Source: an uncultured Methylomonas sp. (GTDB lineage Bacteria; Pseudomonadota; Gammaproteobacteria; Methylococcales; Methylomonadaceae). Taken from it: DNA of 64,000 nucleotides. Positions 6,390 to 45,894 of the stretch are shown here, in pieces. Made by a program: the position numbers and the translations under genes. The stretch is taken from NCBI GenBank assembly GCA_936941155.1, contig CAKZJE010000020.1, forward strand, positions 1 to 64,000, in the 5' to 3' direction. The notes beneath the pieces are model-generated. The model saw only the letters and a list, made by a program, of their open reading frames with translations. It made no database searches and was not told where the DNA came from. Each line of letters opens with the position of its first letter. Within the stretch, counting starts at the first letter, position 1.

Positions 6390-7406
6390 TCACTGCGCCG
6401 CTGTAAAAGCTTTGCTCATATACTCCGTCAATTTGCCGGCTTTGTTATAAACCAACAGCACTTTCAATTTTTCCGCCTCGGCAATTCGCGCGGCTTCTTG
6501 CTCGCCCACACACAATAACGCAGTATCCCACGCATCCGCCCACGTTGGACTTTCGTGCATCACCGTGACAGAAAGCAAATGATGCGTCACCGGACTGCCG
6601 GTTTTGGGATTCAAAATATGCGAATAGGAATGCCCTTTTTCCTCAAAAAAATTCCGATACGTTCCCGCCGTCATCACCGCAGAACCGGCTTGTTGTTTAA
6701 TATCAATAATTTTTTGCACATCCATTGTCAACGGCGTAGGCGCAACAATCCCCACGCGCCAATCTCCGCCATCCGCTTTGCGACCTTTCACCATCATTTC
6801 GCCGCCGATTTCCACCATATAATTCTGAATCCCTAACGCTTCCATTTTTTTCGCCAACACTTCCACGCTATAACCTTGCGCAATCGAAGACAGGTCGATT
6901 TTAAGTTTTGGGTCTTTTTTCCGAATCCGATTATTTTTGGTATCCACTTCTAACAACGACATACCAATATGCGGCAACAGCGCGGCAATTTCAGCGGGGC
7001 TAGGCACGCGGTTTTCATGCTTCGTAAATCCCCATAAATCGAATAGCGGCTTCACAGTTAAATCATAACAGCCGTTAGACTTTTGATAAACGGAGTGCGA
7101 AATACTCACCAATTGCGCAATTTCCGCAGAAACAGGCTGCCAATCGGTTGTTTCCACAGCATTTACATGCGCAATTTCAGAATCATCGCGATAATTGGAC
7201 AGTTTTAAATCAATGTCAGCCAAGGTTTTAGAAATAATGGTTTGCGCTTGTTGCGCCGTGACGGGCAAGCCGTCTAATACCAATTTAATGTGATAGGTTG
7301 TGCCTTGCGTGTCGCCTGTGAGTTCGGTTTCTTTTTTAGGTTTTTGGCAACCAAACAGCAGCGCGACAATAAAGAATAACAAAGAAAGTTTGATAGTTTT
7401 TGGCAT
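6390..7406 (-). CDS. apbE: FAD:protein FMN transferase, lipoprotein (ApbE)
   Basis: A 338-residue ApbE-family protein. It transfers FMN from FAD onto a threonine of target proteins at the periplasmic face of the membrane. The N-terminus is a lipoprotein signal with lipobox LLFGC (Cys20), so it should be membrane anchored. Family marks seen: 'GTTYHIKL' near the start, 'KIDLSSIAQGYSVE', 'YMVEIGGEMMVKG', 'YSHILNPKTG' and a C-terminal 'ADAWDTALLCVG', the Asp/Thr region that binds metal. The length is normal. No Rnf, Nqr or other flavinylated target gene is next to it. A second, signal-less ApbE is encoded at 36853-37767. Confidence 0.92.
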   Translation of the reverse strand: MPKTIKLSLLFFIVALLFGCQKPKKETELTGDTQGTTYHIKLVLDGLPVTAQQAQTIISKTLADIDLKLSNYRDDSEIAHVNAVETTDWQPVSAEIAQLVSISHSVYQKSNGCYDLTVKPLFDLWGFTKHENRVPSPAEIAALLPHIGMSLLEVDTKNNRIRKKDPKLKIDLSSIAQGYSVEVLAKKMEALGIQNYMVEIGGEMMVKGRKADGGDWRVGIVAPTPLTMDVQKIIDIKQQAGSAVMTAGTYRNFFEEKGHSYSHILNPKTGSPVTHHLLSVTVMHESPTWADAWDTALLCVGEQEAARIAEAEKLKVLLVYNKAGKLTEYMSKAFTAAQ

Positions 7407-32267: not shown

Positions 32268-32717
32268 GAGGAAAAGTTGCTAAGAAACACTAAAAAAGAC
32301 CTAAGAGATTGACTCTCAGTTTGCGAAAGTTAAGTTATTTTAACTTAAAAATTTTAATTATCGCCTGTTAAATTAAATTCTCTCCAAAAAAGATTTTTTT
32401 ATAAATTCGGGATAGAAAAGCGAATTTTTTAGCGTAATTTTAAAAAATAGGTCATATCACACACCATGCTGAGTTATATAACATAGTTTTTTTAAATCTT
32501 TGTGACTACTCAATTTTCGATTATTTTGGCGCAACTATTTTCCAAAAATTAATCTTTATAAATCAAAATCCTACATAAAATTTAACTTTAAAAGCACGAA
32601 TTGGCACAACACCTGCATTTATACATAACAAGTTACCTAGCTCATGGTTGCTTTTTAAGTGTGATTATTAATCCTTTGTTGTAAGTCATTCTATTAATTT
32701 TTAATTTGGGGAAATTC
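32268..32717. other. Divergent AT-rich intergenic region
   Basis: About 450 very AT-rich bases between gspD and the secreted-protein gene. Apart from the sigma-54 promoter candidate at 32601-32618 and a long leader of about 100 bases, no feature stands out. Confidence 0.5.
32601..32618 (+). promoter_or_regulatory. Candidate sigma-54 promoter
   Basis: TTGGCACAACACCTGCATT contains the -24 GG and -12 GC elements separated by exactly ten bases, and the flanking bases agree with TGGCAC-N5-TTGCA except C for the first T. It lies about 100 bases upstream of the 32718 start codon. PilR, encoded in this window, is a sigma-54 activator. The AT-rich DNA upstream could carry activator sites. Confidence 0.55.
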
Positions 32718-33731
32718 ATGTTAGATACAAGATTTAAAAAAATCGCTTTATGCACAATCGTTACAGCATTATGCGGAGCTGCTCAAGTTGCTTCTGCTCA
32801 TACTGGCATTAGAGACTCAGGTTTTGTTGAAGGTCAAGGTAACACAGGCGTAAGCGTAAACGTAACAACAGGCGTGGTTGCTCCAAGTGCATCAGCTTAC
32901 AACGCATTCACAATCACTCATGGTTGTGCAACCAACGCAATTGCTGAAGGTACAACAGGTACTGTTCGCAAAAACGTGATTGCAATGGCAGCATTGTTCC
33001 CAAACTCACCGAATGCAGCTGATGTTAAAATTTATCGTTACAAAACAGGCACAATTGCAACAGGCGTAAAAGGCGTTGACGGTACTGTATTAACAGGTGC
33101 AGCATCTTCATTACCTGTAACTAGTGCTAATGATTTAACTGACGACATCAACGGTGCTGTTGCAGGTGCTGGTTTAACAGGATTAAGTTTAGGTCTAGTT
33201 AGCCCTAACTTATTTGGTAACAGTGTACAACCAAAATTAGATGCTGTAGGTGCAGTTAGAGGTTATAGCGTTTTTAACACAGCTAAAACACAAGCATTAA
33301 CTGAAAGCATCATCAGCACAACAGGTCTTTCTGCATTCAAAATGGCAGTTCCTACTTTCAAAACAACTTCTTGCGCGGCTAATTTAATCGTGCGTGTGGC
33401 TGTAACTAACTGGTGTATGAAAGGTCTTACTAGCAAAACAGCGGTTGATCGTAAAGACGTTTGGATTGGCACAGACACAGGCAGTGTAAAATACAGCATG
33501 ATGGGACCTAACCATGAAGTGATGCCAAACAGCCGTACAACAATGGGTATGACTGATGCAACTTTGTCTGAACAAGGCAATGGCACAAGCTTTTGGCCAA
33601 AAATCACTGTACGCCGCGATTTAGTTAAAAACCCATTACCAGCAAGCTGCAACGGCGAAAGCTATGACGTAGTAGTTCAACCATCTGGTGCTGATATTGA
33701 CGCTAACTTGACTATCCCAGGCTTTTTCTAA
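32718..33731 (+). CDS. Secreted protein of unknown function
   Basis: 338 residues. The signal peptide spans 1-26 and is cut after 'QVASA' before 'HTGIRDSGF'. The mature protein begins with a His and has 'FTITHGCATNA', 'KNVIAMAALFPNSP', and later four more Cys. It is rich in Thr, Ala, Gly and Asn. The His-Gly-Cys segment recalls YcnI/DUF1775 periplasmic copper proteins, but the resemblance is weak. The start has GGGGAA upstream. Codon use differs from neighbours, with many ACA and GCA codons, typical of a highly expressed or structural exported protein. A strong terminator follows. Secretion by the nearby type II system is possible but unproven. Confidence 0.75.
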   Translation: MLDTRFKKIALCTIVTALCGAAQVASAHTGIRDSGFVEGQGNTGVSVNVTTGVVAPSASAYNAFTITHGCATNAIAEGTTGTVRKNVIAMAALFPNSPNAADVKIYRYKTGTIATGVKGVDGTVLTGAASSLPVTSANDLTDDINGAVAGAGLTGLSLGLVSPNLFGNSVQPKLDAVGAVRGYSVFNTAKTQALTESIISTTGLSAFKMAVPTFKTTSCAANLIVRVAVTNWCMKGLTSKTAVDRKDVWIGTDTGSVKYSMMGPNHEVMPNSRTTMGMTDATLSEQGNGTSFWPKITVRRDLVKNPLPASCNGESYDVVVQPSGADIDANLTIPGFF

Positions 33732-33787
33732 GCTTATCAATAGTCATAAACAGTTTTAACTGTTTACTTTTTTAGTTAGATCACCAT

Positions 33788-33822
33788 TAAGTGCGCCTTC
33801 GTTATGAAGGCGTACTTTTTTC
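33788..33822 (+). terminator. Rho-independent terminator
   Basis: Stem GTGCGCCTTC/GAAGGCGTAC around GTTAT followed by TTTTTT, 57 bases after the stop of the secreted-protein gene. Confidence 0.85.
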
Positions 33823-33976
33823 TAAGCAGTCCTTTGATATATCAGGAAAAATATCAAAAGCTTTATTTTGAACTCAACATAAACAGATAAGAATCAAGCG
33901 ATTTTCATCTTTGTTATATAATAAAAGCTTAATATACTGCTTTCGGTATGTGTTAATTTTAAAAAAAGGAGTTCTA

Positions 33977-34414
33977 ATGAAAAAAACTACATCACAATCA
34001 ATCTTTATTGCCGCTGCATTGTTTTTCACTACCCATGCGGCTTTTGCACATGACCAAACCGGCGCGTTAGGAAAAGCGGCTGGCGCGACTGATTATTACG
34101 CCATTTCTTGTTTTGATGATGGCAATGGTGCTGCTGCTTATCTGGCTTTTCAAGTCATCGACGCATTACCTGTTGCGGCTCCTGTTGTGAGTGCGCAAGT
34201 CACTAAAGGTCGTTTGGCAGTCAACACAACAGATGCCATTGATGGCGATGCGACTTATAGTCCAAAAGTGTTAGTCAAAGGTGGCAATGGCACTTATTCT
34301 GTATCCGTTGATAAAACCAAAGCTGGCGTAGAAAATTATTCGTTTCAATACCACTGCGAAACATCTGACAACCAACACACTGGCACTAGCATTATTCCTA
34401 TGCAGAACCAATAA
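33977..34414 (+). CDS. Small secreted protein of unknown function
   Basis: 145 residues. The signal peptide is cut after 'THAAFA' before 'HDQTGALGKAAGATDYYAIS'. The mature part is about 120 residues with two Cys, one near the N-terminus (ISCF) and one near the C-terminus (YHCE), which probably form a disulfide. It has a beta-rich pattern ('SAQVTKGRLAVNTTDAIDGD', 'VKGGNGTYSVSVDKTKAG'). As in the gene before it, the mature protein begins with His near the cut site. AAAGGAG lies six bases before the ATG, so the gene starts here and not further upstream. I know no named family. Confidence 0.78.
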   Translation: MKKTTSQSIFIAAALFFTTHAAFAHDQTGALGKAAGATDYYAISCFDDGNGAAAYLAFQVIDALPVAAPVVSAQVTKGRLAVNTTDAIDGDATYSPKVLVKGGNGTYSVSVDKTKAGVENYSFQYHCETSDNQHTGTSIIPMQNQ

Positions 34415-34480
34415 AAAAATATTTATCTGCTTATCCCTCCCCTACTCTCTTTTCGTTTTCCCTTTATCTCTCTGATGCTT

Positions 34481-34514
34481 CCCACGTTGAATGTTTAACG
34501 TGGGCTTTTTTTTG
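34481..34514 (+). terminator. Rho-independent terminator
   Basis: Stem CCCACGTTGA/TTAACGTGGG followed by eight T, after the small secreted-protein gene. Confidence 0.85.
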
Positions 34515-34621
34515 CACGTCAAAAAACTATGTTATTTGACACACTTGGAATTTATCAGCGTAGCCGCCGGAGTAACACGCTTTAGGAAACGAGCATGAAA
34601 CAACTTATGCAAATATTTAAT

Positions 34622-34666
34622 GTAGGTGCGGATTTATCCGCACAGTGCGAATGAATTCGCACCTAC
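34622..34666. repeat. Dispersed palindromic repeat, family A
   Basis: GTAGGTGCGGATTTATCCGC followed by ACAGTGCGAATGAATTCGC and ACCTAC. Outer arms GTAGGTGC/GCACCTAC pair. Confidence 0.75.
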
Positions 34667-34718
34667 AGTTGCCAGATGTTCCTTGGCTGTTTTCAATGCT
34701 ATTGCCTCCTTAATAATT

Positions 34719-34854
34719 ACTTAAACCGCATCCATTCAGAAACACATAGTTTTTTAAAATGGTTAGATGCAATGTAAACGTGTAGAGACGCAAAATATTG
34801 CGTCTCTACGGTTCAACAAAAAACTACGTTTCTCAAATTAGATGAAGTTTAAGT
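34719..34854. repeat. Inverted-repeat element E, uninterrupted copy
   Basis: 136 bases that begin ACTTAAAC and end GTTTAAGT. About 45 bases at each end are imperfect inverted repeats (both include 'TAGTTTTTT' in the same relative place), and the centre is a family F hairpin. This is the empty site for element D: TA at 34747-34748 equals the target duplicated in the copy at 47166-47410. Confidence 0.75.
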
Positions 34855-34890
34855 GAATGACAGCCACCTGACTTTAGAAATAAATTATCG

Positions 34891-34930
34891 AAAAATTTTT
34901 AAGACGACTGGTCGTCTTGAAAAATTTCGC
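34891..34930. repeat. Dispersed palindrome, family B
   Basis: Core AAGACGACTGGTCGTCTT between AAAATTTTT and GAAAAATTTC. Nearly perfect inverted symmetry. Confidence 0.75.
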
Positions 34931-34976
34931 AGCATTAAGACAATTAGCAGAATATGTTTATCACCCAAACCTTTCA

Positions 34977-35096
34977 GAGGCTGTGAAAGTATTGTCATTT
35001 TGGAGTGCAAAACCTAGGTTTTGCACTCCAGGATCATAGATAAATCAATAATTTAAAAATAACATTTTGATGTTTTTTGAATACTTTCACAGCCTC
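34977..35096. mobile_element. 120-bp MITE-like element inserted in a family C palindrome
   Basis: Ends are 17-base perfect inverted repeats: GAGGCTGTGAAAGTATT at 34977-34993 and its complement at 35080-35096. The element is flanked by TTCA on both sides (34973-34976 and 35097-35100). Removing it and one TTCA restores AACCTTTCAGGTCTCGAAGA, a normal family C palindrome. An internal perfect palindrome, TGGAGTGCAAAACC/GGTTTTGCACTCCA, lies at 35001-35030. No open frame, so it is non-autonomous. Confidence 0.88.
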
Positions 35097-35186
35097 TTCA
35101 GGTCTCGAAGACCTGAACGTTTTTTTATCCCTGAAAATGTAAACGCAATGACTTACACGTTATTTTTGCGTAACAATCTTTATCAA

Positions 35187-36737
35187 CTAGCGTATCAACA
35201 AATCCGCCCCCAACCAATCGACTAAAAAGCGACGATAATATTCTGCTTTATGAACTTGCAAATGCTCCAGTGGATTAAAATTATCCGTTAAAACTAAACC
35301 TTGTGTTTTATCAACATTGAATTTGCGCGTTTGCAACCAATTCACTTGCTCTGCGTTAAGCGTATTGCTGTTTATATCAATCGCTTTATTGCTGGCTAAG
35401 AAAATAAAATCATTAAAATCTTTGCCCGGCTCAGAAATAAACACAGTTTGCTCCGCAAAAACTTCGCCCAGCGTTTTAGCCACCGACGCTAATCCAGCAT
35501 TGTAGCCTTGTGAAAACGCCACAAAATTCAGTGCCAAAATGCCGTTTTTACTTAATAAACTGCGCAATTGCGTTAAGGCTTCCACGGTTAATAAATGCGC
35601 AGGCTCAGTGCCGCCGGTAAAACAATCGTGAATAATTAAGTCATATCCGCCAGATAAATGCCGAATTTCATAGCGTGCATCACCGACAATATTCTGCCCT
35701 GATGATTGAAAGCCAAAATAATTGCTTGCAGCATTCGCAACTGCTGGGTCAATTTCTAAAGTATCCACTTTAAGACCGTATTGACGATGCAACACATTCG
35801 CCATGTGCCCCGCACCTAATCCCACGATTAAAACTCGATTCATATTGCCGCGTAACGCTGGAATCAAACCGACAATATCTTGATACGTTAATCTGCTTTC
35901 GCCATTGCTGATACTTGCCGCGCCAATTGTGGAAGCATCTGAAGTGAGAATGCGCAAATCATGCGTTTTTTGATCCATCACGCGCACCCTGCCGTATAGG
36001 CTTTCGTGCTCAGAAATAATTTCAAACCCACTATTGCCGGTTGAAATATGCCCCGCACTTACAATTTTTGGCACAAGCGCAAGTCCAACAATGCTTAAAA
36101 ATACACAGGGCAAAATGGCTGCGGTCAGCGCAAATTGTTTTTTCTCATAAATCCCAACCATGATGGAGAGCGCGAATAAACAAACACCTAAGCCGATTAA
36201 AATTTGCCGCGAACCTAACATCGGGAACAAAAAGAATCCTAATAACAACGTGCCAATCACGCTGCCAACCGTGCTAACGGCGTAAATTGAACCGGAACTT
36301 GAACCAATTCCTTCTAAGCGCGAGGTTGCAAGTTTGATGGCAAACGGACTGACCATGCCTAACATGGTTAAACTGGGCGAAAACAAGACTAACGCACTAA
36401 CAAAAGCCCCCATGCGCAAGCCTAATGGATCGGTTGCCAATAATATCGAGCGCGTTACCCAAGGAATCAACAAGGTAAACAATGCTGCCAGCGCGATAAT
36501 CAACGAAAGTCCGGTGCGTTGTGCGTTGTCCGCCCAGCGACCACCAATAAAATAGCCAGTTGCCAGCGCAATCATCGTCACTGAAATCAAAGACGACCAC
36601 ACATATAAACTCGCTCCGTAAAAAGGCGCAATCATGCGTGTGCCTAGCAGTTCTATCACCATCACTGAAGCACCGGTGAGAAAAATAGTGATATACAGCC
36701 CAGCGCGTCCGAAAACATTTAAAGAGTTATCAAGCAT
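35187..36737 (-). CDS. Fused MFS / spermidine synthase-like membrane protein
   Basis: 516 residues. The N-terminal half has about seven or eight membrane helices ('ITIFLTGASVMVIELLGTRM' opening motif, 'GRWADNAQRTG' loop). The C-terminal half is a spermidine synthase-like methyltransferase fold with 'RVLIVGLGAGHMANVLHRQY' and 'LEIDPAVANAA' for cofactor binding. The catalytic Asp position reads 'IIHDCFTGG', unlike the D-A-F-D of true spermidine synthases, so polyamine synthesis is doubtful. Proteins of this fused class are common but not well characterised. It is not in an operon with the genes on either side. Confidence 0.85.
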   Translation of the reverse strand: MLDNSLNVFGRAGLYITIFLTGASVMVIELLGTRMIAPFYGASLYVWSSLISVTMIALATGYFIGGRWADNAQRTGLSLIIALAALFTLLIPWVTRSILLATDPLGLRMGAFVSALVLFSPSLTMLGMVSPFAIKLATSRLEGIGSSSGSIYAVSTVGSVIGTLLLGFFLFPMLGSRQILIGLGVCLFALSIMVGIYEKKQFALTAAILPCVFLSIVGLALVPKIVSAGHISTGNSGFEIISEHESLYGRVRVMDQKTHDLRILTSDASTIGAASISNGESRLTYQDIVGLIPALRGNMNRVLIVGLGAGHMANVLHRQYGLKVDTLEIDPAVANAASNYFGFQSSGQNIVGDARYEIRHLSGGYDLIIHDCFTGGTEPAHLLTVEALTQLRSLLSKNGILALNFVAFSQGYNAGLASVAKTLGEVFAEQTVFISEPGKDFNDFIFLASNKAIDINSNTLNAEQVNWLQTRKFNVDKTQGLVLTDNFNPLEHLQVHKAEYYRRFLVDWLGADLLIR

Positions 36738-36819
36738 CGTGTTATTCCAATAAGTAAAAATTTATTTTTAAAATCAGTTTCTGATAGTTTTAAGTGATTA
36801 ATCAAAAATTTTATCGCCT

Positions 36820-36854
36820 AAACCTTCCAGGTCTTTAAGACCTGGAAGGTTTTT
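36820..36854. terminator. Family C palindrome, probable terminator
   Basis: Arms AAACCTTCCAGGTC/GACCTGGAAGGTTT. It touches the last codon of the ApbE gene at 36853 and the stem is followed by T-rich DNA. Confidence 0.6.
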
Positions 36855-37767
36855 ATATCTGAATTCCGCTACAACCCATCTCGCCCTGCACATCCACCCA
36901 CAAATGCGGCAAACCTAATTGCGCCAGCCACGCCGCGCCTTCGGCTTCTTTTAACATGGCAATGGTGGAAGCACTACCGGCAACAACACAAAAATCGCCC
37001 ACCACGCTCACCGAAGCTAAGTGTTTGATTGGCCAGCCTGTTTTTGGATTTAAGATATGACTGTAACGCACACCATCAAGCACAATACAGCGTTCATAAT
37101 CACCGCTGCTGGCAAGTGCGCCTTCTGTTAAATTTAAGGTAGTGAGCATTTCTCCAGCGCGACGCGGATGTTGAATGCCAATCCGCCACGCGCTGCCGTC
37201 TGCGCGAGCACCGATAATTTTTATGTCGCCGCCTAAATTAATAATGCCGTGTCGAATTCCTGCTTGCTGGCAAAGCGCGGCAGCGCGATCAACCGCGTAT
37301 TCTTTCACCACGCCACCAAAGTCGATTTCCATGCCTGCGGTTAAAAAAGTTAAGCGCGGTGCAGTCCAATCGACTTTTTCCCAACCCACTTTGCCAAGCA
37401 AAGCATGTAAGGTCTGTTCATCAGGCAAAATATTTTCTTTAAAAGACCACGCGCGGCGCAAAATTCCTGACGTTATATCGAATAAACCGTCACTTTCTTG
37501 ATAACAAGTGGCAGCATAATGAAGCAATCCCGCTGTTTCGTTGTCGACTTCAATTGCACCGCCAACCGCAGCAACGCGATTCATTTCTGATAAAAAACTG
37601 TCACTGCGATAACGTGAATAAATAGCTTCTAAGCGGCGCACATCCCGAATCACCGTATTGGCGATTTGTTGCGCAACAGTAGAATTTTTTGCATAGAATT
37701 GAATGTCGCAAGATGTTCCCATCGCTTTGAATTCATAGCGGAAAAATTTAAGTGAACGTTGTTTCAA
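36853..37767 (-). CDS. FAD:protein FMN transferase (second ApbE homologue)
   Basis: 304 residues with ApbE marks 'FKAMGTSCDIQF' at the N-terminus, 'SDGLFDITSGILRRAW', 'EIDFGGVVKEYAVDRAAA', 'GIINLGGDIKIIG', 'YSHILNPKTGWPI' and 'VVAGSASTIAMLKE' near the C-terminus. There is no signal peptide or lipobox, unlike the copy at 6390. The only start that keeps the N-terminal motif is a non-ATG codon (TTG at 37767). Last gene of a five-gene minus-strand operon with TlpA, DUF4266, DUF3570-barrel and phosphatase genes, a grouping seen for ApbE in other proteobacteria. It likely flavinylates a protein of that system. Confidence 0.88.
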   Translation of the reverse strand: MKQRSLKFFRYEFKAMGTSCDIQFYAKNSTVAQQIANTVIRDVRRLEAIYSRYRSDSFLSEMNRVAAVGGAIEVDNETAGLLHYAATCYQESDGLFDITSGILRRAWSFKENILPDEQTLHALLGKVGWEKVDWTAPRLTFLTAGMEIDFGGVVKEYAVDRAAALCQQAGIRHGIINLGGDIKIIGARADGSAWRIGIQHPRRAGEMLTTLNLTEGALASSGDYERCIVLDGVRYSHILNPKTGWPIKHLASVSVVGDFCVVAGSASTIAMLKEAEGAAWLAQLGLPHLWVDVQGEMGCSGIQI

Positions 37768-37784
37768 GCGACTTTTCGGTGAGA

Positions 37785-38384
37785 TTAGGGAGCTCGTTTC
37801 ATCAGCTCTCTGAGTTTCTGAATATCCATTGTGTTAAGAAAATCAGGGTTTTGAAACCAAATTGTGTTAAAGCGAAAATCAAACATTTCTGCGATGGCAT
37901 CTTTGGGAGACCAATCTTCAAACACCATCCGATACGTTGCAACGCTGTATCCGGTGCGGTCGCGCCCTTCTGCACAATGAATAAACACGGGTGAGTTGTT
38001 AGTGTTTTGAAAATCTCTCTCTAACTCTTTCATCAACACAATCAGCTGTGCGGTATCAGGATTCCAAGCGTGCATCGGGATGCGTAAATAGTGCAGCTGT
38101 GTGCCGCCTAATTTAGCAAAGTCGTCGTAATCATCATGCGTATCGCGTAAATCAATTACCGTTTTCACGCCTGCTTTTTCTAAATTGCGAAAACCTTCTG
38201 CGGTCGGTTGCGAACCGCGCCAAAGTTTTGCTGATACTTTGGTAAAATTTTCTACGCCAGCAATTGCAGTATCAGACGGTAATTGCCAATGTTGTGTGAA
38301 AGGTGGCGCGGGTGGTGTTGCGCAGCCATTGAGAAGCAGTGAACTACACAAAAAAACGTAATGCGTTATTTTCATTAGATTCAT
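37785..38384 (-). CDS. Dual-specificity/tyrosine phosphatase-like lipoprotein
   Basis: About 199 residues. The N-terminal signal is of the lipoprotein type ('FLCSSLLLNGC'). The phosphatase loop is complete: 'VFIHCAEGRDRTGYSVATYR', i.e. C-x5-R, with the general acid Asp probably in 'DLRDTHDDYDDFAKLGG'. Proteins of this class dephosphorylate proteins, inositol phosphates or other phosphate esters, here outside the cytoplasm. ATG at 38384 lies one base after the stop of the upstream barrel gene. Seventeen bases separate it from apbE. Confidence 0.85.
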   Translation of the reverse strand: MNLMKITHYVFLCSSLLLNGCATPPAPPFTQHWQLPSDTAIAGVENFTKVSAKLWRGSQPTAEGFRNLEKAGVKTVIDLRDTHDDYDDFAKLGGTQLHYLRIPMHAWNPDTAQLIVLMKELERDFQNTNNSPVFIHCAEGRDRTGYSVATYRMVFEDWSPKDAIAEMFDFRFNTIWFQNPDFLNTMDIQKLRELMKRAP

Positions 38385-38385
38385 C

Positions 38386-41037
38386 TTAAAACGCATATCC
38401 CCACGCCAGTGATAACGCGCCTTGCCGCTCCAGTTGGAAGCCATTCACTTTGTCTGAAACGGGTTGCAGCCATTCAAATGCCAAATGATTGCCCTCAAAA
38501 CTACCGCCCGTCACGGTTGCATTCACACCAAAACCAACATCCCAATATTGTCCGCCGTAGTTTGCCGGATAATCAAAGGAGCTGGATTTGTCGTGCACTT
38601 CATTATATTCACCACGAATCGAACCTTGTGTGGTGTACACGCCGCGCACGGAGGTGGAAAGCCAATCGAAAATGTTATAACTGCCCCACACTGTGCTTTG
38701 AAAAATATTGCCTAAGGCGAAACCGGATTTGTTTTGTTTTTCAAGCCGTTTCGTGCCGCTTAATTGTGCGCCCCACGACCAGTCGTCAAGGTGTCCGGTG
38801 TACGTCACGCTTGGTTTAAAGTCCCATGTGCCGCTACCTAATTGCATACCGTAATGGACAAAACCTAAATCATCTCCACCCGCGCCATGATGAATCGGTC
38901 TGTATTTAATCCCAACATTGCCGGTTGGGGCACTAAAACCAATGCCTGCATGAAGATGATGTTCTCCATTATCAAACAACTTAACCAAAGCATACATGCC
39001 CGTATCACCAATCCCGCCTGTGGCGTGTTCATGGCTGATGTGATGGTTGACAGCTTGCGCCAATTCATTATCAAGCGTTGGAATTCTGATCCGCACACGC
39101 GGAATCGCGCGAAAATTCATATCCATTGTCATAAACTGCGGCATCAGCATCAGATTAAGCCAATCGGTCGGCGCGTACATAATATCCAACATGTGCATTT
39201 GCATAGTGTGATCAGTGGCTCTGACCAAACAATATTCACTGCGCTTTTGACCACAGCCATTATTTCTGACAGTTAAATCATCCACAAAATCAGCACCATG
39301 CTGCATATTTCCTGATTGAAAACCGTACATATAACGATAACCAATCATAATATCGTCAGCTTGACTGAGCATGTGGTCAAACATCACCCCCGCTGGCGCG
39401 TGACCGCCATGATGACTATGCGCAGAGTGTCCTGCATGTCCTGCGTGTTCACTGTGGTCGGCTATGCGAATATTGGCAAGCGTGGATAAATCAACTTTCA
39501 ATGCGGCATTGACTGTGTAGTAATTAAAATCGGCATAACTCCCTTCACCGCCACCGCCTAGCTTTAATGCGCCTTTGTGGGTGTAATATTCAAATCCCGC
39601 TTCCAGCGTCAGCCCTTTCGCAAACTTTTTACTCACTGTGATGCCGCTGCTTAACGCACCATAACCTGATAAACGTTGGTCGCTGGAAAAATAACTGGGC
39701 AATTGGTTCGGATCGTATGGAATTGACTTAATCGGCACGCCTTTTTTATTGTAAATAATCTTGTTATAAGCCTGCTGCGAAATCAGATACGGGGTATAAA
39801 AATCCGCACTATCCTGCGTGTAATAGCGAACTCGCGGCGTAACCATCCAACTATTGCCAATCGGCTGTCCCCAATCCAATTCAAAAGTATGCGAGTTAAT
39901 GCCCCAGTCATCGTGATAAAAACGATAATCAAAATGCAAGGCGGCATCTAGCAAATCAATATGTTGCGCATAATGCGTATTCAGATTCCATTGATTGCGC
40001 TCTTCAGGACGCTGTTCCAGAAACGCATGAGGAGCTCCAGCCGCTAACACGTTTTTAGGCAAACCCAGAGCAACTGTTTTTTGTTTAGGATCAACAAAAA
40101 AGATTTCCACCAGTTTATAAGGATTGGACATATAGCCCGTGCTGCGTGTGTAGCCTGCACCGAACTCTATTAAGGCACTTTTATTCAAAACCTGACTAAA
40201 ACTCAGCTGCGTTGCCCAATCTTCTTTTTGACCTGACAACTTGTTTTTGCCGCTATCAGGATTAATATCAACGTAATTCTTAAAAAATGCGTTGTGCTCT
40301 ATATATGGCGTGACAAAGTGATCGAGTATCGCGAAAGTGCTGCTGTTGGTGTAGCTTAAACCGAGATTCAAGCTGGTTTGTTTTTGATTAAAATCCCAAC
40401 GACTACCTAAATTGACAAAGCGCGATTCATAATCCCGTTCCACAGAAATGCCACCACCGACATTTAACGCCATTTCATCCCATTCGTAACCGAGTTTAAA
40501 ATCACCTTGCTGGCGAGTTTCTGGCGATGCCGTAGACATGGTATGAACGACTTGCTTATTCACTGCGCCATACATTTGTTTTTTAGTTGTACCAAACAAA
40601 TTGTAATTAATCGGATTAAAATTTCTATCAACAAACAACTGCCCTGACTGAACGTAAGGCGATGCCCCAACCACAGTGGTGACAGCATTTTTGCCTCTGC
40701 CAGTGGTTTTTAAAATGGCGCGATTCGCATCAAAAACCAAAGGCGCGGTAGTAATCGGCGTTGCTCCCGACCAAGTATCTTCGCTGTAATTTAAACTCAG
40801 TTTAATTCTATCGGCTAAAGTGATTTTCGCGCTGCCATGCAAACTATCCACTTCAATCGGATCAAATTTGCTTTGTGCGCCATACAAATTTCTATAGCCT
40901 TCTTGATAATGTCCGTATTGAAAATCCACTTCATTTTCTTCCGCAGCCGCTTGTGGCGATTGCAATAAACCCGGCAACAGCAAAGCCGCCGCTGTTAACG
41001 CTTGTAAACTGTTTGATTTGTTTTTAATAGCAGCCAC
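38386..41037 (-). CDS. DUF3570 outer-membrane barrel fused to a second barrel domain
   Basis: About 883 residues. After a signal peptide ('LLLPGLLQSPQAAA') residues up to about 540 match DUF3570 ('VDFQYGHYQEGYRNLY', 'LNYSEDTWSGATPIT'), with alternating hydrophobic strands of a beta barrel. A His-rich linker ('HSEHAGHAGHSAHSHHGG') joins it to a second domain of about 330 residues ('APAGVMFDHMLSQADDIMIG', 'MQMHMLDIMYAPTDWLNLML', 'IGFSAPTGNVGIKYRP') of another outer-membrane family. It ends in W-G-Y-A-F, an aromatic terminus typical of Omp proteins. The best start is GTG at 41037, after GGAGGCG and overlapping the DUF4266 gene. The length is about twice that of a single DUF3570 protein. Confidence 0.82.
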   Translation of the reverse strand: MAAIKNKSNSLQALTAAALLLPGLLQSPQAAAEENEVDFQYGHYQEGYRNLYGAQSKFDPIEVDSLHGSAKITLADRIKLSLNYSEDTWSGATPITTAPLVFDANRAILKTTGRGKNAVTTVVGASPYVQSGQLFVDRNFNPINYNLFGTTKKQMYGAVNKQVVHTMSTASPETRQQGDFKLGYEWDEMALNVGGGISVERDYESRFVNLGSRWDFNQKQTSLNLGLSYTNSSTFAILDHFVTPYIEHNAFFKNYVDINPDSGKNKLSGQKEDWATQLSFSQVLNKSALIEFGAGYTRSTGYMSNPYKLVEIFFVDPKQKTVALGLPKNVLAAGAPHAFLEQRPEERNQWNLNTHYAQHIDLLDAALHFDYRFYHDDWGINSHTFELDWGQPIGNSWMVTPRVRYYTQDSADFYTPYLISQQAYNKIIYNKKGVPIKSIPYDPNQLPSYFSSDQRLSGYGALSSGITVSKKFAKGLTLEAGFEYYTHKGALKLGGGGEGSYADFNYYTVNAALKVDLSTLANIRIADHSEHAGHAGHSAHSHHGGHAPAGVMFDHMLSQADDIMIGYRYMYGFQSGNMQHGADFVDDLTVRNNGCGQKRSEYCLVRATDHTMQMHMLDIMYAPTDWLNLMLMPQFMTMDMNFRAIPRVRIRIPTLDNELAQAVNHHISHEHATGGIGDTGMYALVKLFDNGEHHLHAGIGFSAPTGNVGIKYRPIHHGAGGDDLGFVHYGMQLGSGTWDFKPSVTYTGHLDDWSWGAQLSGTKRLEKQNKSGFALGNIFQSTVWGSYNIFDWLSTSVRGVYTTQGSIRGEYNEVHDKSSSFDYPANYGGQYWDVGFGVNATVTGGSFEGNHLAFEWLQPVSDKVNGFQLERQGALSLAWGYAF

Positions 41038-41242
41038 AACCGCCTCCACTGCCCGCATCTCCACCACTCGCAGCTTCACGACTACCATAAATATGACTGC
41101 GAAAACCTGTTTGCATCGGCGTAGGGTCTAAAGCCATCTGCGGTTTAGCCAAATTGCCACGCTCCCAAGGCGCAACCTCGGCACAACCTGAAACAGATGC
41201 AGTGAATATCCACAATATAAACAATCGGTTAGCTTTATTCAT
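41024..41242 (-). CDS. DUF4266 small lipoprotein
   Basis: 72 residues. Lipoprotein signal with 'TASVSGC' lipobox, then 'APWERGNLAKPQMALDP', a conserved segment of DUF4266, and a Gly/Cys-rich tail ending G-G-C-G-C-Y. The two terminal Cys could form a disulfide or bind metal. Next gene in the operon after the TlpA-like gene (9-base gap), and its end overlaps the start of the barrel gene. DUF4266 and DUF3570 genes commonly occur side by side. Confidence 0.85.
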   Translation of the reverse strand: MNKANRLFILWIFTASVSGCAEVAPWERGNLAKPQMALDPTPMQTGFRSHIYGSREAASGGDAGSGGGCGCY

Positions 41243-41251
41243 TCCATATCT

Positions 41252-41770
41252 CTAGTGACTTGCTGGAGACTCTGACAACAATTGTTTTATAAACTGTTGC
41301 AACTGCCCCGTTTCTCCAGCGCGAAAACCTAAATGCTCATGGCGAATCACGCCATTGCGGTCGATTAAATAAGAAGAAGGCATGGCTTTGACATCAAACG
41401 CTTTTGCACAACGTTGATCTGAACCATTCAGCACCGTAAATTTTGCCGAATGCTCTTTGAGAAAATTTTGCGCATCCACCGCACTTTCATCCATATTCAC
41501 TGCCAACACTTTAAAGTCTTTGTCTTTAAACTCGTGTTCTAAGCTATTCATAAACGGAAAAGATTGCACGCAAGGCGCACACCACGATGCCCAAAAATCC
41601 ACATAAACCACTTTGCCTTTAAATTGCTGCAAATTATAGTTTTTTGCATCAGGAATGGAGCTTCCTTCACACGCTGGCGCAACACGCCCCGTTGTTTCAG
41701 TGGCGATTGAAGTTTGAATTGATAGGAAAAAAAACAGAGTGCTAAGTAAAATTGTTATGCGCTGATTCAT
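41252..41770 (-). CDS. TlpA-family periplasmic thioredoxin
   Basis: About 172 residues with an N-terminal signal sequence and a thioredoxin fold with active site 'FWASWCAPCVQSFP', then 'AVNMDES' and the cis-Pro 'MPSSYLIDRNG'. Typical TlpA/ResA-like reductases act on disulfides or haem-binding cysteines in the periplasm. The start MNQRIT is preferred since a signal peptide follows. First gene of a five-gene operon. It may keep the cysteines of the DUF4266 lipoprotein reduced, which is inference. Confidence 0.88.
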   Translation of the reverse strand: MNQRITILLSTLFFFLSIQTSIATETTGRVAPACEGSSIPDAKNYNLQQFKGKVVYVDFWASWCAPCVQSFPFMNSLEHEFKDKDFKVLAVNMDESAVDAQNFLKEHSAKFTVLNGSDQRCAKAFDVKAMPSSYLIDRNGVIRHEHLGFRAGETGQLQQFIKQLLSESPASH

Positions 41771-42007
41771 TATGTTGATTTTTTTGTTATGTGGCTCACG
41801 ATGATGACTCTTCGATAAGTCATATCGGCGCACAGAAAATACACGAGAGATAAAAAATATCTAAAAGCATAAGCACTAAATACGCCACGATTCGCGAAGG
41901 CTTATAACGACTCAGTTTTCCAAAAAAAAATCCGCACTATTTATTTAAACTGTGTTATTTAACGCAAATTTATCAGGTTAAATAACACAGTTTTATTCAT
42001 TCCCATT

Positions 42008-42670
42008 TTATGACAGCTGTTGATCGTCAATAAAACCACGCACGGTATTGCGCATTTCTTCGGATAAATGTGTTGATTTAAGCTTTTTCTTTAAGCCACG
42101 CATAATCATTTGATAACGTTTTGAATTACTCTCTTCGTTAGCAATCTGATTTTGCAGCGTCGAAAGCGCGTTAAACTGCACGTTTTGATTGCTATCATCC
42201 ATTGCGGCAAATAACCCTGCAATTGCTGCTGTGCTTAAAGGCTCAAAAGCTGACAAACTTTCCGCCGCAGTGCTGCGCACCTCAGGATCAGCGTCGCCAC
42301 TTAATGCGTTGAGTAACAGTTTTTCCGCTTCTGCGGTCGGATAGGCTGACAATTGTTCCGCGCCATCATGCCGCTGTTGAGCATTTGCGCTTGCCAACCA
42401 TTGTCCTGCGGTTGCCACTTGCGAGTTTTCTATTGCTTTTTCTTCTTTCAGTTGCGCTTCAGTCGGCTCTAAAGTGCCACCTTGCTGCATGGCAAGCTCA
42501 CGAAAATCAGGCATTTTCACTTGCACGGCTGGAGCTTTTGCAGGAGTTGCTTTGCTAAGCAATGCTTTGATGGGTTCAAAATTTCCATAAACCAAAACCG
42601 CTTTCACAATGCCAGCAATCAAGCCAATTAGCAGCAATAACAAACCGATGCGGCGCACTATTTTTTTCAT
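42008..42670 (-). CDS. Membrane-anchored HEAT-repeat protein
   Basis: About 220 residues. An N-terminal membrane anchor ('IGLLLLLIGLIAGIVKAVLV') is followed by a linker and about three HEAT-like repeats ('GDADPEVRSTAAESLSAF', 'DDSNQNVQFNALSTLQNQ'). No catalytic motif. HEAT repeats usually mediate protein binding. GAGCTAG precedes the start at 42670. Its neighbours do not give a functional context. The sequence upstream holds a diverged relative of the palindrome inside the 34977 element (42702-42740). Confidence 0.7.
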   Translation of the reverse strand: MKKIVRRIGLLLLLIGLIAGIVKAVLVYGNFEPIKALLSKATPAKAPAVQVKMPDFRELAMQQGGTLEPTEAQLKEEKAIENSQVATAGQWLASANAQQRHDGAEQLSAYPTAEAEKLLLNALSGDADPEVRSTAAESLSAFEPLSTAAIAGLFAAMDDSNQNVQFNALSTLQNQIANEESNSKRYQMIMRGLKKKLKSTHLSEEMRNTVRGFIDDQQLS

Positions 42671-42827
42671 ATCTAGCTCAATAAAAATTTGGTGATTTTG
42701 TGGAGTGCAAGCTTTGCTTGCAATGTTATGCAAAACCTATGTTCTTTAGATTTTATGATGTACTGAACTTTATTTTCAATGACTAACAAGAATTATAAAC
42801 GGATGCTGATCATTGTTAAAACGCTCT

Positions 42828-42866
42828 GAAACTTTAAAAACGACCAGTCGTCTTGAAAAATTTCGC
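42828..42866. repeat. Dispersed palindrome, family B
   Basis: GAAACTTTAAAAACGACCAG followed by TCGTCTTGAAAAATTTC, between two co-directional minus-strand genes. Confidence 0.7.
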
Positions 42867-42896
42867 TCCAACTCAACTTATCCGCACTTACACAAA

Positions 42897-42932
42897 TAAA
42901 AAGCGGAGCATGAAGCTCCGCTTTCTTAACGC
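42897..42932 (-). terminator. Terminator of the GlcG/HbpS-like gene
   Basis: Inverted repeat AAAGCGGAGC/GCTCCGCTTT around ATGA. On the minus strand the stem is followed by a T-rich run. Confidence 0.8.
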
Positions 42933-42952
42933 AAAAACAATAAATGTTTTAT

Positions 42953-43756
42953 TTAGTTTAACAGTGTGCCGTTATCAAGGGTTGCTGCTGGTAAAGAGTT
43001 AGGGCAAGTGGGTTGTGACCACGCATCCCAATAAGGAGTGGTTGTTGTGGTTGCATTCAGAATCATCTCATCGCCTTTCAGACCTGTTGCTAAAGGCGTT
43101 TGTGCCGCGCCGCTTGCATCCATATTCACTGTAGTAATACCTGAGCCGCCAGGATGTCCTGCCAATGCAGTACGCACTTGCCATGCAAACGCATGATCGC
43201 GGCAAGAAGTATCACCAGAAACACCAATCGCACCTACTTTTTTACCAGCCAAATAAACCGCTAAGCCGCCACCAAACACATTCACACCGCCAACACGTTT
43301 GCCTTTCATTGGATCTGTTGGAGTGCCATAAGCTGAAGGTGCGCCTGCATACGCTTTAACTGGTGCAACTGGATTGCTAAATTGCAAACCATACAAGCTG
43401 CCGCCAGGTTGTACTGCACTGTATAAGTTTGCAGTTGAAATTGCATAACCATCTAAACTAAACGCATTGGCAGTGTTTGCTTTTTGTGCAGAAATTACAC
43501 GGCTGCCTAACCATTCATTGTTACCTGCTGAAGCTCCAGAAACGCCACTTGTCACAACATCACAAACCATACCTGTTTCATCAACAAACGTCACCCACAT
43601 AGGCAAACTATAACCACCAGTCACCAGACCTTTTGCAGCAGTCACTGCTGTCTCAAGCGTAGAACGAGAAATGTCAGAGCATTTAGCCATTGCACTTTGA
43701 CTCATCACAGACAACGCAGCAACACCTAAAATTGCTGATAAAGTAAGTTTTTTCAT
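42953..43756 (-). CDS. GlcG/HbpS-like (DUF336) secreted protein
   Basis: 267 residues. Signal peptide 1-24 ('LGVAALSVMSQSAMA'). The mature part is a GlcG/HbpS (haem-degrading, DUF336) domain: 'STLETAVTAAKGLVTGG', 'SRVISAQKANTANAFS', 'GGVNVFGGGLAVYLAGKKVG', 'AIGVSGDTSCRDHAFAWQVR'. It carries four Cys. HbpS-type proteins bind haem and act in redox sensing. Start MKKLTL follows GAGGA by eight bases. A strong terminator follows. It stands alone. Confidence 0.85.
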   Translation of the reverse strand: MKKLTLSAILGVAALSVMSQSAMAKCSDISRSTLETAVTAAKGLVTGGYSLPMWVTFVDETGMVCDVVTSGVSGASAGNNEWLGSRVISAQKANTANAFSLDGYAISTANLYSAVQPGGSLYGLQFSNPVAPVKAYAGAPSAYGTPTDPMKGKRVGGVNVFGGGLAVYLAGKKVGAIGVSGDTSCRDHAFAWQVRTALAGHPGGSGITTVNMDASGAAQTPLATGLKGDEMILNATTTTTPYWDAWSQPTCPNSLPAATLDNGTLLN

Positions 43757-44313
43757 AAAAAAGTCCTCATACAAAACAAATTATTAATTTTTAAGTGCAT
43801 TTCACAGATTCAGTTGTGCAAATGCGAAGTGTGCGTGCAATACAAAGGTTATTTGCCAGTGGAAAGTTTATCTTCATCTAACACGCATAAAGAGTTTAGC
43901 AAATCTATTCTTAAAAAAACACTTTAAAAACAGGGAAAGCGGCAATTCAAAATCTTCAAAGCAAGTTATTTGCACTCAAACTTATCTTACATTTTTCTGC
44001 CTCGGCAAAACTTGCGATAAATAATTCATTGGATAATCAGAACAACTTACGGTTCATTATCATAACTCTTTGAAAAATAATAACTCTATTCAAATATTGC
44101 GTGATTTAAAAAACTTTGTTTTTAACCGGATTGTGATCTTGATAGAGTAATTTAAAAAACCTATTTTTTGTTCTTTCTATGCTTTGCGGTTTGTGCCATT
44201 ATCAATCCATCCGTTTGTTTCATAACAAACACATACACATTAAAACAATATAAATCAATAACTTAACTTATCATCATTTATTGAAAACAATTTCATTCTT
44301 AAGGAGAATTATT
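43757..44313. other. Divergent intergenic region, about 560 bases
   Basis: AT-rich DNA between the GlcG-like gene and the GH5 gene. No member of the repeat families and no gene found. A half site resembling a CRP/FNR element (TTGTGATCTTGATAG) lies near 44130-44150. Confidence 0.4.
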
Positions 44314-45894
44314 ATGTGCAAACTATTTAGGCGTTATCTTTTTTTAATTCTAATGGTTTATAGCCTGCCGAGCCTTTCGTTTACCGTCAACAATGGCAAA
44401 ATAAATAATAAATTAAATCAAGTCGTTGTTCTGCGAGGAGTTAATTGGTTTGGTTTTGAAACAGGCGATCATGTTGTGCACGGCTTGTGGGCGCGTCCTT
44501 GGAAAAGCATGATTGGGCAAATGAAAAACTTAGGTTTTAATGCGGTGCGCATTCCAGTTTGTCCTGCCTCGCTTTATGGTGCTTCGGTTTCGAGTATTAA
44601 CTATGGACAAAATCCAGATTTAGTCGGTAAAAATTCGCTAGAAATTCTTGATTTGGTGATGAATGAGTTTAATAAACAAGGATTTTATATTCTGCTCGAT
44701 CATCATAGCCCTGATTGCAGCGCGATTTCAGAATTATGGACAACTAGCGTTTATACAGAGGCGAATTGGATTAACGATTTAGTGTATATGGCAAATCGTT
44801 ATAAAGCCTTACCAAAATTTTTAGGAATTGATTTAAAAAATGAACCCCATGGTATGGCAACATGGGGTGCAAATAATCCTCTCACCGATTGGAATAAAGC
44901 GGCTGAACGCGCTTCCGCTGCGGTGCTGGCTGCCAATCCTAATTTATTGGTTTTTGTTGAAGGGATTCAAGAAAGCAATGCCTGTAGTGGCAAAATTGCA
45001 CATTGGTGGGGCGGCAATTTAGAACCGCTCAAATGCACGCCTTTGAATATTCCTGCAAATAAATTGGTATTAAGTCCGCATGTGTATGGGCCTGATGTTT
45101 CTATGCAAACGTATTTTAATGCCGCAACTTTTCCAAATAATATGCCAGCGATTTGGAATGCGCATTTTGGTCAATTTGTAACAGCCGGTTACGCTGTGGC
45201 AATTGGTGAGTTTGGTGGAAAATATGGTCACGGCGGCAATGCAAAAGATAAAGTTTGGCAAAATGCGTTTGTAAAATATATGTTGAATAAAAAAATCACC
45301 AATAGTTTTTATTGGTCATGGAATCCAAATAGCGGTGATACTGGCGGGATTTTGCAAAATGATTGGACAACACCTTGGAATGATAAAGTTGATTTGTTGT
45401 TGACCTTATGGCGTAAAAAATCCGTATGTTCTGATGGATTGGATAATGATAATGATGGCTTAGTTGACTATCCAAATGATCCGGGGTGTTTGTCTGTGTT
45501 GGATGGTGATGAAGCTAACGCCCCTACTCCTGTCACTGCTTGTACCGATGGGATTGATAATGACAACGATGGCTTTATTGATTTAATTGATTTAGGTTGC
45601 AGTTCTAAAGCCGATAATAGTGAAGCCAATCCTGCCAGTGGTGTGAAAGTTAAGAGTGTTGAAATTACAAGCAGCTGGACTACAGGCTATTGTGCGTTAA
45701 TTCATTTGCAAAATAGCGGTTCTGTTGCTGAAATTTGGAAAGTCAATTTTGCAACAGAAGGCAAAATTAATTCAATGTGGAACGCGGTTTATACTCAAGT
45801 GGGCAGCAGCGTGTTAATGCGCGGTGCAGCGTGGAATGAGGTTATGCCGGCTGGAACAAGTCTCGACACGATTGGATTCTGCGCGGATCGTTAA
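44314..45894 (+). CDS. Secreted glycoside hydrolase family 5 (cellulase-like)
   Basis: 526 residues. Signal peptide ('FLILMVYSLPSLSF'), then a GH5 barrel: 'LRGVNWFGFETGDH', 'GFNAVRIPVCPASLYG', acid/base Glu177 in 'GIDLKNEPHG', and nucleophile Glu299 in 'VAIGEFGGKYGHGG'. Next are two copies of a Ca-binding-like motif, C-x-D-G-x-D-N-D-x-D-G-x-x-D (about 371-434), and a C-terminal CBM2-like module ('TSSWTTGYCALIHLQNSGSV' and 'LMRGAAWNEVMPAGTSLD'). It should cut beta-1,4-glucans outside the cell. AAGGAG before ATG 44314 sets the start. The nearby type II secretion system could export it, which is inference. Confidence 0.9.
   Translation: MCKLFRRYLFLILMVYSLPSLSFTVNNGKINNKLNQVVVLRGVNWFGFETGDHVVHGLWARPWKSMIGQMKNLGFNAVRIPVCPASLYGASVSSINYGQNPDLVGKNSLEILDLVMNEFNKQGFYILLDHHSPDCSAISELWTTSVYTEANWINDLVYMANRYKALPKFLGIDLKNEPHGMATWGANNPLTDWNKAAERASAAVLAANPNLLVFVEGIQESNACSGKIAHWWGGNLEPLKCTPLNIPANKLVLSPHVYGPDVSMQTYFNAATFPNNMPAIWNAHFGQFVTAGYAVAIGEFGGKYGHGGNAKDKVWQNAFVKYMLNKKITNSFYWSWNPNSGDTGGILQNDWTTPWNDKVDLLLTLWRKKSVCSDGLDNDNDGLVDYPNDPGCLSVLDGDEANAPTPVTACTDGIDNDNDGFIDLIDLGCSSKADNSEANPASGVKVKSVEITSSWTTGYCALIHLQNSGSVAEIWKVNFATEGKINSMWNAVYTQVGSSVLMRGAAWNEVMPAGTSLDTIGFCADR

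Follow-up and report, generated by a model that had tools for sequence, protein, structure and literature searches.

A DUF3570 protein fused to a predicted second outer-membrane barrel in a putative flavin-based redox operon of Methylomonas

The operon and its published relatives

The DNA analysed here, called the window throughout, is a stretch of 64,000 nucleotides from an uncultured Methylomonas sp. (GenBank assembly GCA_936941155.1, contig CAKZJE010000020.1, positions 1 to 64,000). Between positions 36853 and 41770 it carries five open reading frames (ORFs), all on the reverse strand, in the order TlpA thioredoxin, DUF4266, DUF3570, tyrosine phosphatase and ApbE. The initial annotation had described five tightly packed or overlapping genes on one strand, and the ORFs, their Pfam matches and their junctions confirm this picture. 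The unit and the hairpins at its ends are as follows:

41947..41993, reverse strand: 17-bp hairpin between a HEAT-repeat gene and TlpA (z -5.6)
41252..41770, reverse strand: TlpA/ResA-like thioredoxin, WCAPC, N-terminal signal sequence by eye (best Pfam match Redoxin, E 1.9e-26)
41024..41242, reverse strand: DUF4266 small lipoprotein, C-terminus GGCGCY (CxC) (DUF4266, 9.6e-23)
38386..41037, reverse strand: DUF3570 protein fused to a predicted second barrel, 883 aa from GTG 41037 (DUF3570, 4.2e-124; AlphaFold2 model; structural comparison)
37785..38396, reverse strand: lipoprotein-type tyrosine/dual-specificity phosphatase, HCAEGRDRTG, regarded as a lineage-specific insertion (PTP-NADK, 4.8e-17)
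36853..37767, reverse strand: ApbE flavin transferase, apparently without signal peptide (ApbE, 6.2e-76)
36820..36852, reverse strand: 15-bp hairpin directly 3' of the ApbE stop codon (z -6.0)

The start codons of TlpA (ATG 41770), DUF3570 (GTG 41037), the phosphatase (ATG 38396) and ApbE (TTG 37767) are our own choice. With these preferred starts TlpA and DUF4266 are 9 nt apart, DUF4266 and DUF3570 overlap by 14 nt, DUF3570 and the phosphatase overlap by 11 nt, and 17 nt separate the phosphatase from ApbE. The GGAGG sequence and GTG start of DUF3570 are embedded in the final DUF4266 codons (41024-41050), which encode the CxC end, and this 3' coding sequence is also the translation signal for DUF3570. 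Strong hairpins flank the five-gene unit on both sides. A promoter scan of 36600-42900 returned 10 sites against a shuffle mean of 12.9 and is uninformative about internal promoters either way, and an Rfam scan of 32000-44500 yielded nothing at gathering scores.

Frequent grouping of DUF4266, DUF3570, ApbE and a thioredoxin, as put forward in the initial annotation, corresponds to a cassette already in print (Meheust et al., 2021; PMC8238504). The same holds for the suggestion of a conserved envelope unit for flavin- or thiol-based electron transfer, which our analysis supports; the core four-gene set and its redox role are thus known. The study lists 227 DUF3570 clusters of the DsbD type and 316 further ones without DsbD nearby. 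The window shares with it the four families, the flavin motif of DUF3570 and the C-terminal CxC of DUF4266. It differs in the fusion of DUF3570 to a second barrel, in a single flavin site as opposed to two in the Chlorobium prototype, in a thioredoxin matching Redoxin/Thioredoxin_8 and not the PF13899 family named there, in the lack of DsbD in the cluster (present in only a subset of the published ones), in a one-off phosphatase and in YcnI-like and small secreted proteins nearby. We regard the gene set of the window as a variant form of the DUF3570/DUF4266/thioredoxin/ApbE cassette and not as a copy of the Chlorobium prototype. The thioredoxin is also assigned to AhpC-TSA by Pfam and matches the ResA model PRK03147 (1.6e-31), at a score under the model cut-off. 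The C-terminal CxC of DUF4266 recurs in 114 of 114 relatives retrieved by phmmer over the collected loci. The flavinylation motif D-x-x-[ST]-G-A-[ST] was not found in the window DUF4266 sequence and is present in DUF3570, so that the earlier idea of a covalent flavin on DUF4266 was abandoned.

The window genome contains a pmoA/amoA-family gene, a single DUF3570 gene and two ApbE genes, both within the window. A DUF3570 gene was detected in 35 of 61 near relatives and, across the order Methylococcales, in 167 of 251 genomes (window genome counted, fused and plain forms pooled); it was not found in two other same-genus members searched (90 and 93% complete). One genus has many copies (G020, G125), with 15 matches in G020, several of them clustered on one contig. 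The closest labelled relatives of the fused protein come from Methylobacter, Methylococcales, Methylococcaceae and similar records; among the fused loci L070, L072, L075 and L084 are labelled Gammaproteobacteria only. Among the 54 loci L031-L084 DUF4266 was present in at least 50, TlpA in at least 44, ApbE in at least 36 and all four genes in at least 34, and the corresponding figures for the 17 loci L090-L106 are at least 16, 7, 10 and 5; these counts are lower bounds, as many loci stop at contig edges. The neighbourhood work leaves aside L001-L030, L107 and L110-L113 (short stretches or phosphatase matches only). As repeats, L144-L148 do not enter motif counts and alignment statistics, and L144 and L145 do not enter the ApbE comparison. 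The open PMC literature yielded a single paper with DUF3570 and, judged by titles and abstracts, no paper on the cassette in methanotrophs, though such clusters may be included in the supplement of PMC8238504. Measured against the same literature, the fusion of DUF3570 to a second barrel, the Gly/Glu swap in the cassette ApbE and the secreted neighbours of fused cassettes were not found described.

The DUF3570 fusion protein

The initial annotation had recorded a DUF3570 barrel. DUF3570 itself is real, yet the domain covers only residues 29-524 of the 900-residue ORF, and a second barrel had been overlooked. The fused protein contains the following elements:

39475..40941, reverse strand: barrel 1 (DUF3570), mature residues 1-489, approximately 16 strands by our count (model and structural comparison)
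40759..40779, reverse strand: flavinylation motif D55-TW-S-G-A-T61 on the presumed lumen-side face of strand 46-67 (alignment and strand pattern)
40660..40671, reverse strand: degenerate second flavin site VGAS, reading TTVVGAS (alignment)
39352..39489, reverse strand: His-rich inter-barrel linker, mature residues 485-530 (alignment and model)
38389..39390, reverse strand: predicted barrel 2, mature residues 518-851, approximately 12 strands, COG4313-channel-like (structural comparison)
39118..39210, reverse strand: Met ladder, even mature residues 578-608 on two adjacent strands (alignment)

An AlphaFold2 model of the fused protein, calculated from 49 sequences (predicted local distance difference test, pLDDT, 82.0; predicted template modelling score, pTM, 0.79), consists of about 16 strands, a linker of low confidence and about 12 strands. 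A first Foldseek list had chained both parts onto large TonB receptors, a reading that was dropped when a second comparison (VIA) resolved two separate barrels. Residues 1-489 of the model resemble the barrels of BamA, PelB and CymA (Z about 18-22), and residues 508-851 best match the COG4313 channel 4rl8 (Z 23.3) and FapF (Z 22.6). Barrel 2 shares its fold with 4rl8 over 252 aligned residues (root mean square deviation 2.7) at 16% identity. Barrel 2, the domain termed OMP2 here, gave no separate Pfam match over the cut-off; stand-alone relatives match Phenol_MetA_deg. Two separate outer-membrane barrels in one chain are therefore predicted by the model. Two membrane barrels per chain have also been predicted for GfcD (PMC11494523), which differs in that a periplasmic domain lies between its 12- and 13-strand barrels and polysaccharide export has been proposed for it.

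DUF3570 is joined to OMP2 by a His-rich linker in most Methylococcales relatives examined. Both parts are present in all 54 loci L031-L084, in a single open frame everywhere except in L079. Plain DUF3570 proteins, about 370-510 residues long, are found in some Methylococcales, in Campylobacterota, in a Burkholderiaceae metagenome-assembled genome (MAG), in Bacteroidota and in Chlorobi-like genomes. For residue statistics we used an alignment (A1, n=49) of the window protein with 48 of 52 usable fused loci (L049, L053, L056 and L081 omitted; L076 and L079 partial). In this alignment 47 of the 49 linkers contain 5-10 His residues.

Methionine and histidine together make up 9.7% of barrel 2 as compared with 3.0% of barrel 1. 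Positions 578, 580, 582, 584, 588, 598, 600, 606 and 608 are Met in 46-49 of the 49 sequences and share one face with D586 and Q602, while the opposite, odd face presents L585, I/L587, Y589, L595, L597, L599 and F603. Because Met lies on the face of D586 and Q602 and the other face carries Leu, Ile, Phe and Tyr, the lumen of barrel 2 is probably Met-lined. Stand-alone OMP2 proteins were encountered in Methyloceanibacter and a relative, in an Acinetobacter MAG and on Ruegeria plasmids, and a long His/Gly-rich linker joins OMP2 to an OMP_b-brl barrel on plasmid pMSC49c of Methylosinus sp. C49 (L116). The MxMxMxM pattern is kept in the relatives from Methyloceanibacter, Acinetobacter, Ruegeria and Methylosinus.

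Barrel 1 bears the motif D-x-x-[ST]-G-A-[ST] described for covalent flavinylation (PMC12052999). Across A1 D55, G59 and A60 are present in 49 of 49 sequences and residue 61 is invariably T or S, while position 58 is occupied by S in 38 and by G in 9. The strand formed by residues 46-67 begins with I, L, L and Y at even positions and has K, S, N, S, D, W, G and T at odd ones, and from this alternation T61 is inferred to lie on the polar, lumen-side face. If the termini and the linker are taken as periplasmic, T61, 15 residues above the short turn, should be near the outer mouth of the barrel. The DUF3570 protein of C. luteolum was flavinylated by its cognate ApbE upon co-expression in E. coli; most of it accumulated in the insoluble pellet, and the protein, purified in denatured form, carried flavin (PMC8238504). 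Modification of an unfolded chain thus appears feasible. From the motif and the C. luteolum precedent, covalently bound flavin mononucleotide (FMN) is predicted on the window protein, and a role in flavin-based redox chemistry is likely.

The ApbE flavin transferase of the cassette

The window ApbE matches PF02424 with 255.9 bits (curated cut-off 25.6). Only about 12 residues precede the core and no hydrophobic stretch was found among them, in agreement with the earlier statement that the enzyme has no signal peptide of its own. A hydrophobic stretch before the core is likewise lacking in 64 of 67 cassette pairs; of the remaining three, L122 is ambiguous, and in the other two an ATG precedes the core by 12 and 17 residues. 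The cassette enzymes therefore appear to be made without signal peptides. ApbEs of the order that are not linked to the cassette served as controls, and 27 of their 30 loci were readable (25 AD, 2 SD). Each of the 21 controls that were scored has a hydrophobic stretch of at least 2.18, and the six unscored ones have lipoprotein-like N-termini by eye. Cytosolic ApbEs are known, for example from Klebsiella (PMC12052999). The lack of a hydrophobic stretch in cassette ApbEs, the existence of such cytosolic enzymes and the feasibility of modifying an unfolded chain suggest that flavin is attached before export. Three further features are relevant:

36976..36978, reverse strand: ApbE Gly264, at the position of FmnB Asp301, a Mg ligand (alignment)
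37300..37302, reverse strand: ApbE Glu156, a position at which the 33 Asp-type ApbEs compared have Gly (alignment)
6390-7406, reverse strand: second ApbE of the window, lipoprotein-type N-terminus by eye, Asp site WADAWDT, between two large sensor-kinase genes

Numbering in the alignment with FmnB has an offset of 20, which was checked on FmnB His273. As in ApbE, FmnB and Ftp (PMC8906456, PMC4767422, PMC12052999), the PF02424 family assignment, His237 and Thr268 are retained, and the latter two are invariant among the 94 ApbEs compared. In contrast to canonical FmnB, the window enzyme has Gly for the Mg-ligand Asp and Glu for a Gly, and it lacks a lipoprotein export signal. FmnB Asp301 binds both Mg ions, and replacement of Mg-binding residues by Ala greatly reduces or abolishes activity (PMC8906456); D283, a metal ligand of E. 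coli ApbE (PMC4767422), is taken as its counterpart by description and not by alignment. With Gly264 in place of this Asp, the window ApbE is filed as a PF02424 member only and not as a canonical Asp-dependent ApbE/FmnB. Glu156 lies four residues past the position of FmnB Ala187, another Mg1 ligand.

The combination of Gly264 and Glu156 occurs in 61 of 66 cassette-linked ApbEs; Asp and Gly are found instead in the other five, all from Bacteroidota records, and in 28 of 28 unlinked ones, namely the 27 controls and the second ApbE of the window, which constitutes a natural control for the Gly/Glu type. The double substitution separates two ApbE subclasses without exception among the 94 sequences and may go back to one ancestral event. 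Where DUF3570 has [ST]GA[ST], the paired ApbE is of the Gly type in 62 of 62 cases, whereas DUF3570 proteins without the motif are paired with six Asp forms and one Gly form (L144 and L145 are repeat genomes of L093 and L097, and one L047 ApbE is counted with two DUF3570s). In L097-L099, L105 and L106 (Bacteroidota) an Asp-type ApbE without signal peptide stands beside DUF3570 without [ST]GA[ST].

It could be argued that an ApbE devoid of the Asp is inactive. Of 30 Chlorobi-like loci (L149-L178) eight had a readable ApbE beside DUF3570, and the Gly form is present in all eight; seven of these eight genomes encode the FMO protein, which is regarded as characteristic of green sulfur bacteria, and C. 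luteolum with its proven pair belongs to that group. This analogy disfavours an inactive enzyme.

Neighbouring genes, proposed function and alternatives

Five further genes in the window adjoin or lie close to the operon:

32706..33731, forward strand: c4L, YcnI-like secreted protein with a predicted N-terminal His in the mature form (cluster membership, model)
33911..34414, forward strand: small secreted cluster-4 protein, AHDQ..., two Cys (cluster membership)
35187..36737, reverse strand: MFS/spermidine-synthase-like protein (NF037959, 3.9e-58), recurrent in 14 of 63 fusion loci
42008..42733, reverse strand: HEAT-repeat protein upstream of TlpA, a possible counterpart of the HEAT-repeat neighbour recurring in 21 of 63 fusion loci
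42953-43774, reverse strand: HbpS-like haem-degrading-family protein adjoining the HEAT-repeat gene (Pfam)

Secreted proteins of cluster 4, comprising a short and a long form, are encoded in 51 of 63 fusion loci and in 2 of 22 others, a contrast that is confounded by taxonomy since both of these others (L130, L132) also belong to the window's order. In 39 of 64 cases such a gene directly precedes TlpA and is read from the same strand. The dipeptide AH near the N-terminus of 46 of 61 short and 40 of 54 long members is likely to mark signal-peptide cleavage ahead of His. When the c4L model was compared with 997 aligned chains, rows 1, 2 and 4 were YcnI (Z 9.2-9.5), row 3 was 3esm, an uncharacterised Nocardia protein (Z 9.2), and the next row had Z 7.0. 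Residue 1 of the model, the predicted mature His, aligns to residue 27 of YcnI, a Cu(II)-binding protein in which this residue is a copper ligand (PMC8424229). The likeness to YcnI/DUF1775 thus consists of the modelled fold and the N-terminal His, while c4L differs by the absence of a profile match, by another Glu spacing and by HGC and further conserved Cys; it is YcnI-like by fold and not a DUF1775 member. A different secreted family with AHVGY/AHIGW-like starts (cluster 13) recurs in L070, L077, L080, L128 and L129, and one of its members has a weak, sub-threshold PEP-CTERM match.

All functions proposed for the operon are read from sequences and structural models. We tentatively favour, at somewhat less than even probability, a Methylococcales form of a flavin-based outer-membrane redox unit in which FMN is attached in the cytosol, Cu(II) is reduced at the cell surface and Cu(I) is imported through a Met-lined barrel. 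In the cytosol, ApbE would attach FMN to Thr61 while the DUF3570 protein is still unfolded; the protein would be exported, and the barrel assembly machinery (BAM) would build two barrels from the single chain, as the model predicts. The lumen-facing Thr61 would then place FMN at the outer mouth of barrel 1, where it could receive electrons from periplasmic thiols, that is from the WCxxC of TlpA and the CxC of the DUF4266 lipoprotein. At the surface FMN might reduce Cu(II), and the resulting Cu(I) might enter through barrel 2 and supply methane monooxygenase, metal and direction being hypothetical. The copper reading is based on the Met-lined barrel 2, the His-rich periplasmic linker and the YcnI-like neighbour; copper is plausible, about an even call on these sequence and model features, and import rather than export is less sure. 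The most specific version, a two-barrel reductase-importer whose FMN barrel reduces Cu(II) and whose Met-lined barrel admits Cu(I), with flavin installed in the cytosol by an ApbE subclass that has moved its catalytic carboxylate from Asp to a Glu on another loop, seems doubtful as a whole.

A number of observations weigh against this proposal. Gly replaces Ser58 in 9 of the 49 A1 sequences, [ST]GA[ST] is wholly missing from 10 of 69 fused frames, and the window no longer has an intact second flavin site, S/T at its first position and the Asp both being absent. The orientation of the barrels is deduced from loop lengths. DsbD is missing from the cluster, the one DsbD_TM match of the genome being on a separate contig (C75; the window is C20). 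At position 578 the window itself has His and not Met, both Methylocystis OMP2 copies read are devoid of the Met pattern, and richness in Met and His also fits other soft metals. The Methylosinus OMP2 fusion adjoins feoB, FeoC-like, PepSY and TonB-receptor genes, which favours iron, and the Ruegeria relatives adjoin ccm genes; near the Methyloceanibacter copies, for which ORF starts only were read, no copper gene was recognised. Both cluster-4 genes of the window are on the opposite strand, outside the operon and beyond the MFS/spermidine-synthase-like gene. The c4L model has a pLDDT of 67, Foldseek returned nothing for it at E<=0.001, and its conserved Glu follows His1 by 9-10 residues as compared with 23 in YcnI. 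Finally, none of the 32 c4L members of the respective alignment (A2, the window protein and 31 of 42 candidate long neighbour proteins) matches DUF1775 at E<=1, and the long form is without any Pfam match.

Other functions would draw on the same components. Plain extracellular electron transfer or respiratory disposal, with the FMN barrel handing electrons on to Fe(III) or other external acceptors at low oxygen and barrel 2 acting as a structural element or general channel, follows the same flavin-redox logic and agrees with DUF3570 cassettes of other phyla that lack barrel 2. It is nevertheless unlikely in our view, for the window has a single strict flavin site, and the Met ladder, the His linker and the YcnI-like neighbour would go unexplained. 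Neither is there a multihaem cytochrome as in the MtrAB/PioAB porin-cytochrome conduits, CxxCH being absent from the five products by eye. Reductive iron acquisition, in which surface FMN reduces Fe(III) and Fe(II) enters, would be in line with the ferrous transporter VIT1 in 25 DUF3570 clusters (PMC8238504) and with feoB and PepSY next to the Methylosinus fusion. The YcnI-like neighbour and the lack of an iron transporter in a scan of nine window genes speak against it, as does the Met ladder, since such ladders are typical of Cu(I) and Ag(I) chemistry and not of Fe(II), and we regard it as distinctly improbable. Lower still we place copper tolerance, with the thiol/flavin unit setting the oxidation state of copper and barrel 2 serving as an exit for Cu(I): the Met ladder, the richness in His and Met and the YcnI-like neighbour would suit it too, but methanotrophs are copper-hungry, and no RND or P-type ATPase was recognised among the recurring neighbour clusters, a minority of which were searched with profiles.

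The phosphatase could finally be a working part of the unit, for instance by regulating lipoproteins or by acting on flavin phosphates. Its 11-nt overlap with DUF3570 (first ATG) makes co-translation likely, several dual-specificity and tyrosine phosphatase Pfam models match it, its HCX5R active site (HCAEGRDR, within HCAEGRDRTG) is intact, and the nearest solved structure is Pseudomonas TpbA (4r0s, E 4.3e-14), although the window protein has a lipoprotein-type N-terminus by eye. The notion of a conserved operon member did not survive the neighbourhood check. No HCxxGxxR[TS] protein other than that of the window was found among the chosen ORFs of 85 DUF3570 neighbourhoods. Relatives (E<=1e-6) occur in 9 of the 251 genomes of the order, the window's included, and none is adjacent to DUF3570 in the 166 other DUF3570-bearing genomes, which leaves the window as the one case among 167. 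Two of the other eight genomes with a relative (G026, G139) also have DUF3570, about 700 kb and 500 kb away, and a DUF3570 match was not found in the remaining six. Two same-genus relatives (36 and 34% identical) sit among genes foreign to the cassette. We therefore reject the phosphatase as a conserved partner and consider a functional part for it very improbable indeed; it is best seen as a passenger gene inserted into the operon of this lineage.

Methane oxidation requires large amounts of copper, also in those Methylococcales that have no methanobactin. With DUF3570 present in two thirds of the genomes of the order, the operon is a concrete candidate for copper uptake in these methanotrophs, and if the proposal is true, it would provide a route into the cell that requires neither siderophore, cytochrome nor TonB. 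The operon could also serve to examine the passage of a protein with covalent flavin through Sec and BAM, and the Gly/Glu double substitution represents a natural experiment on the active site of ApbE.

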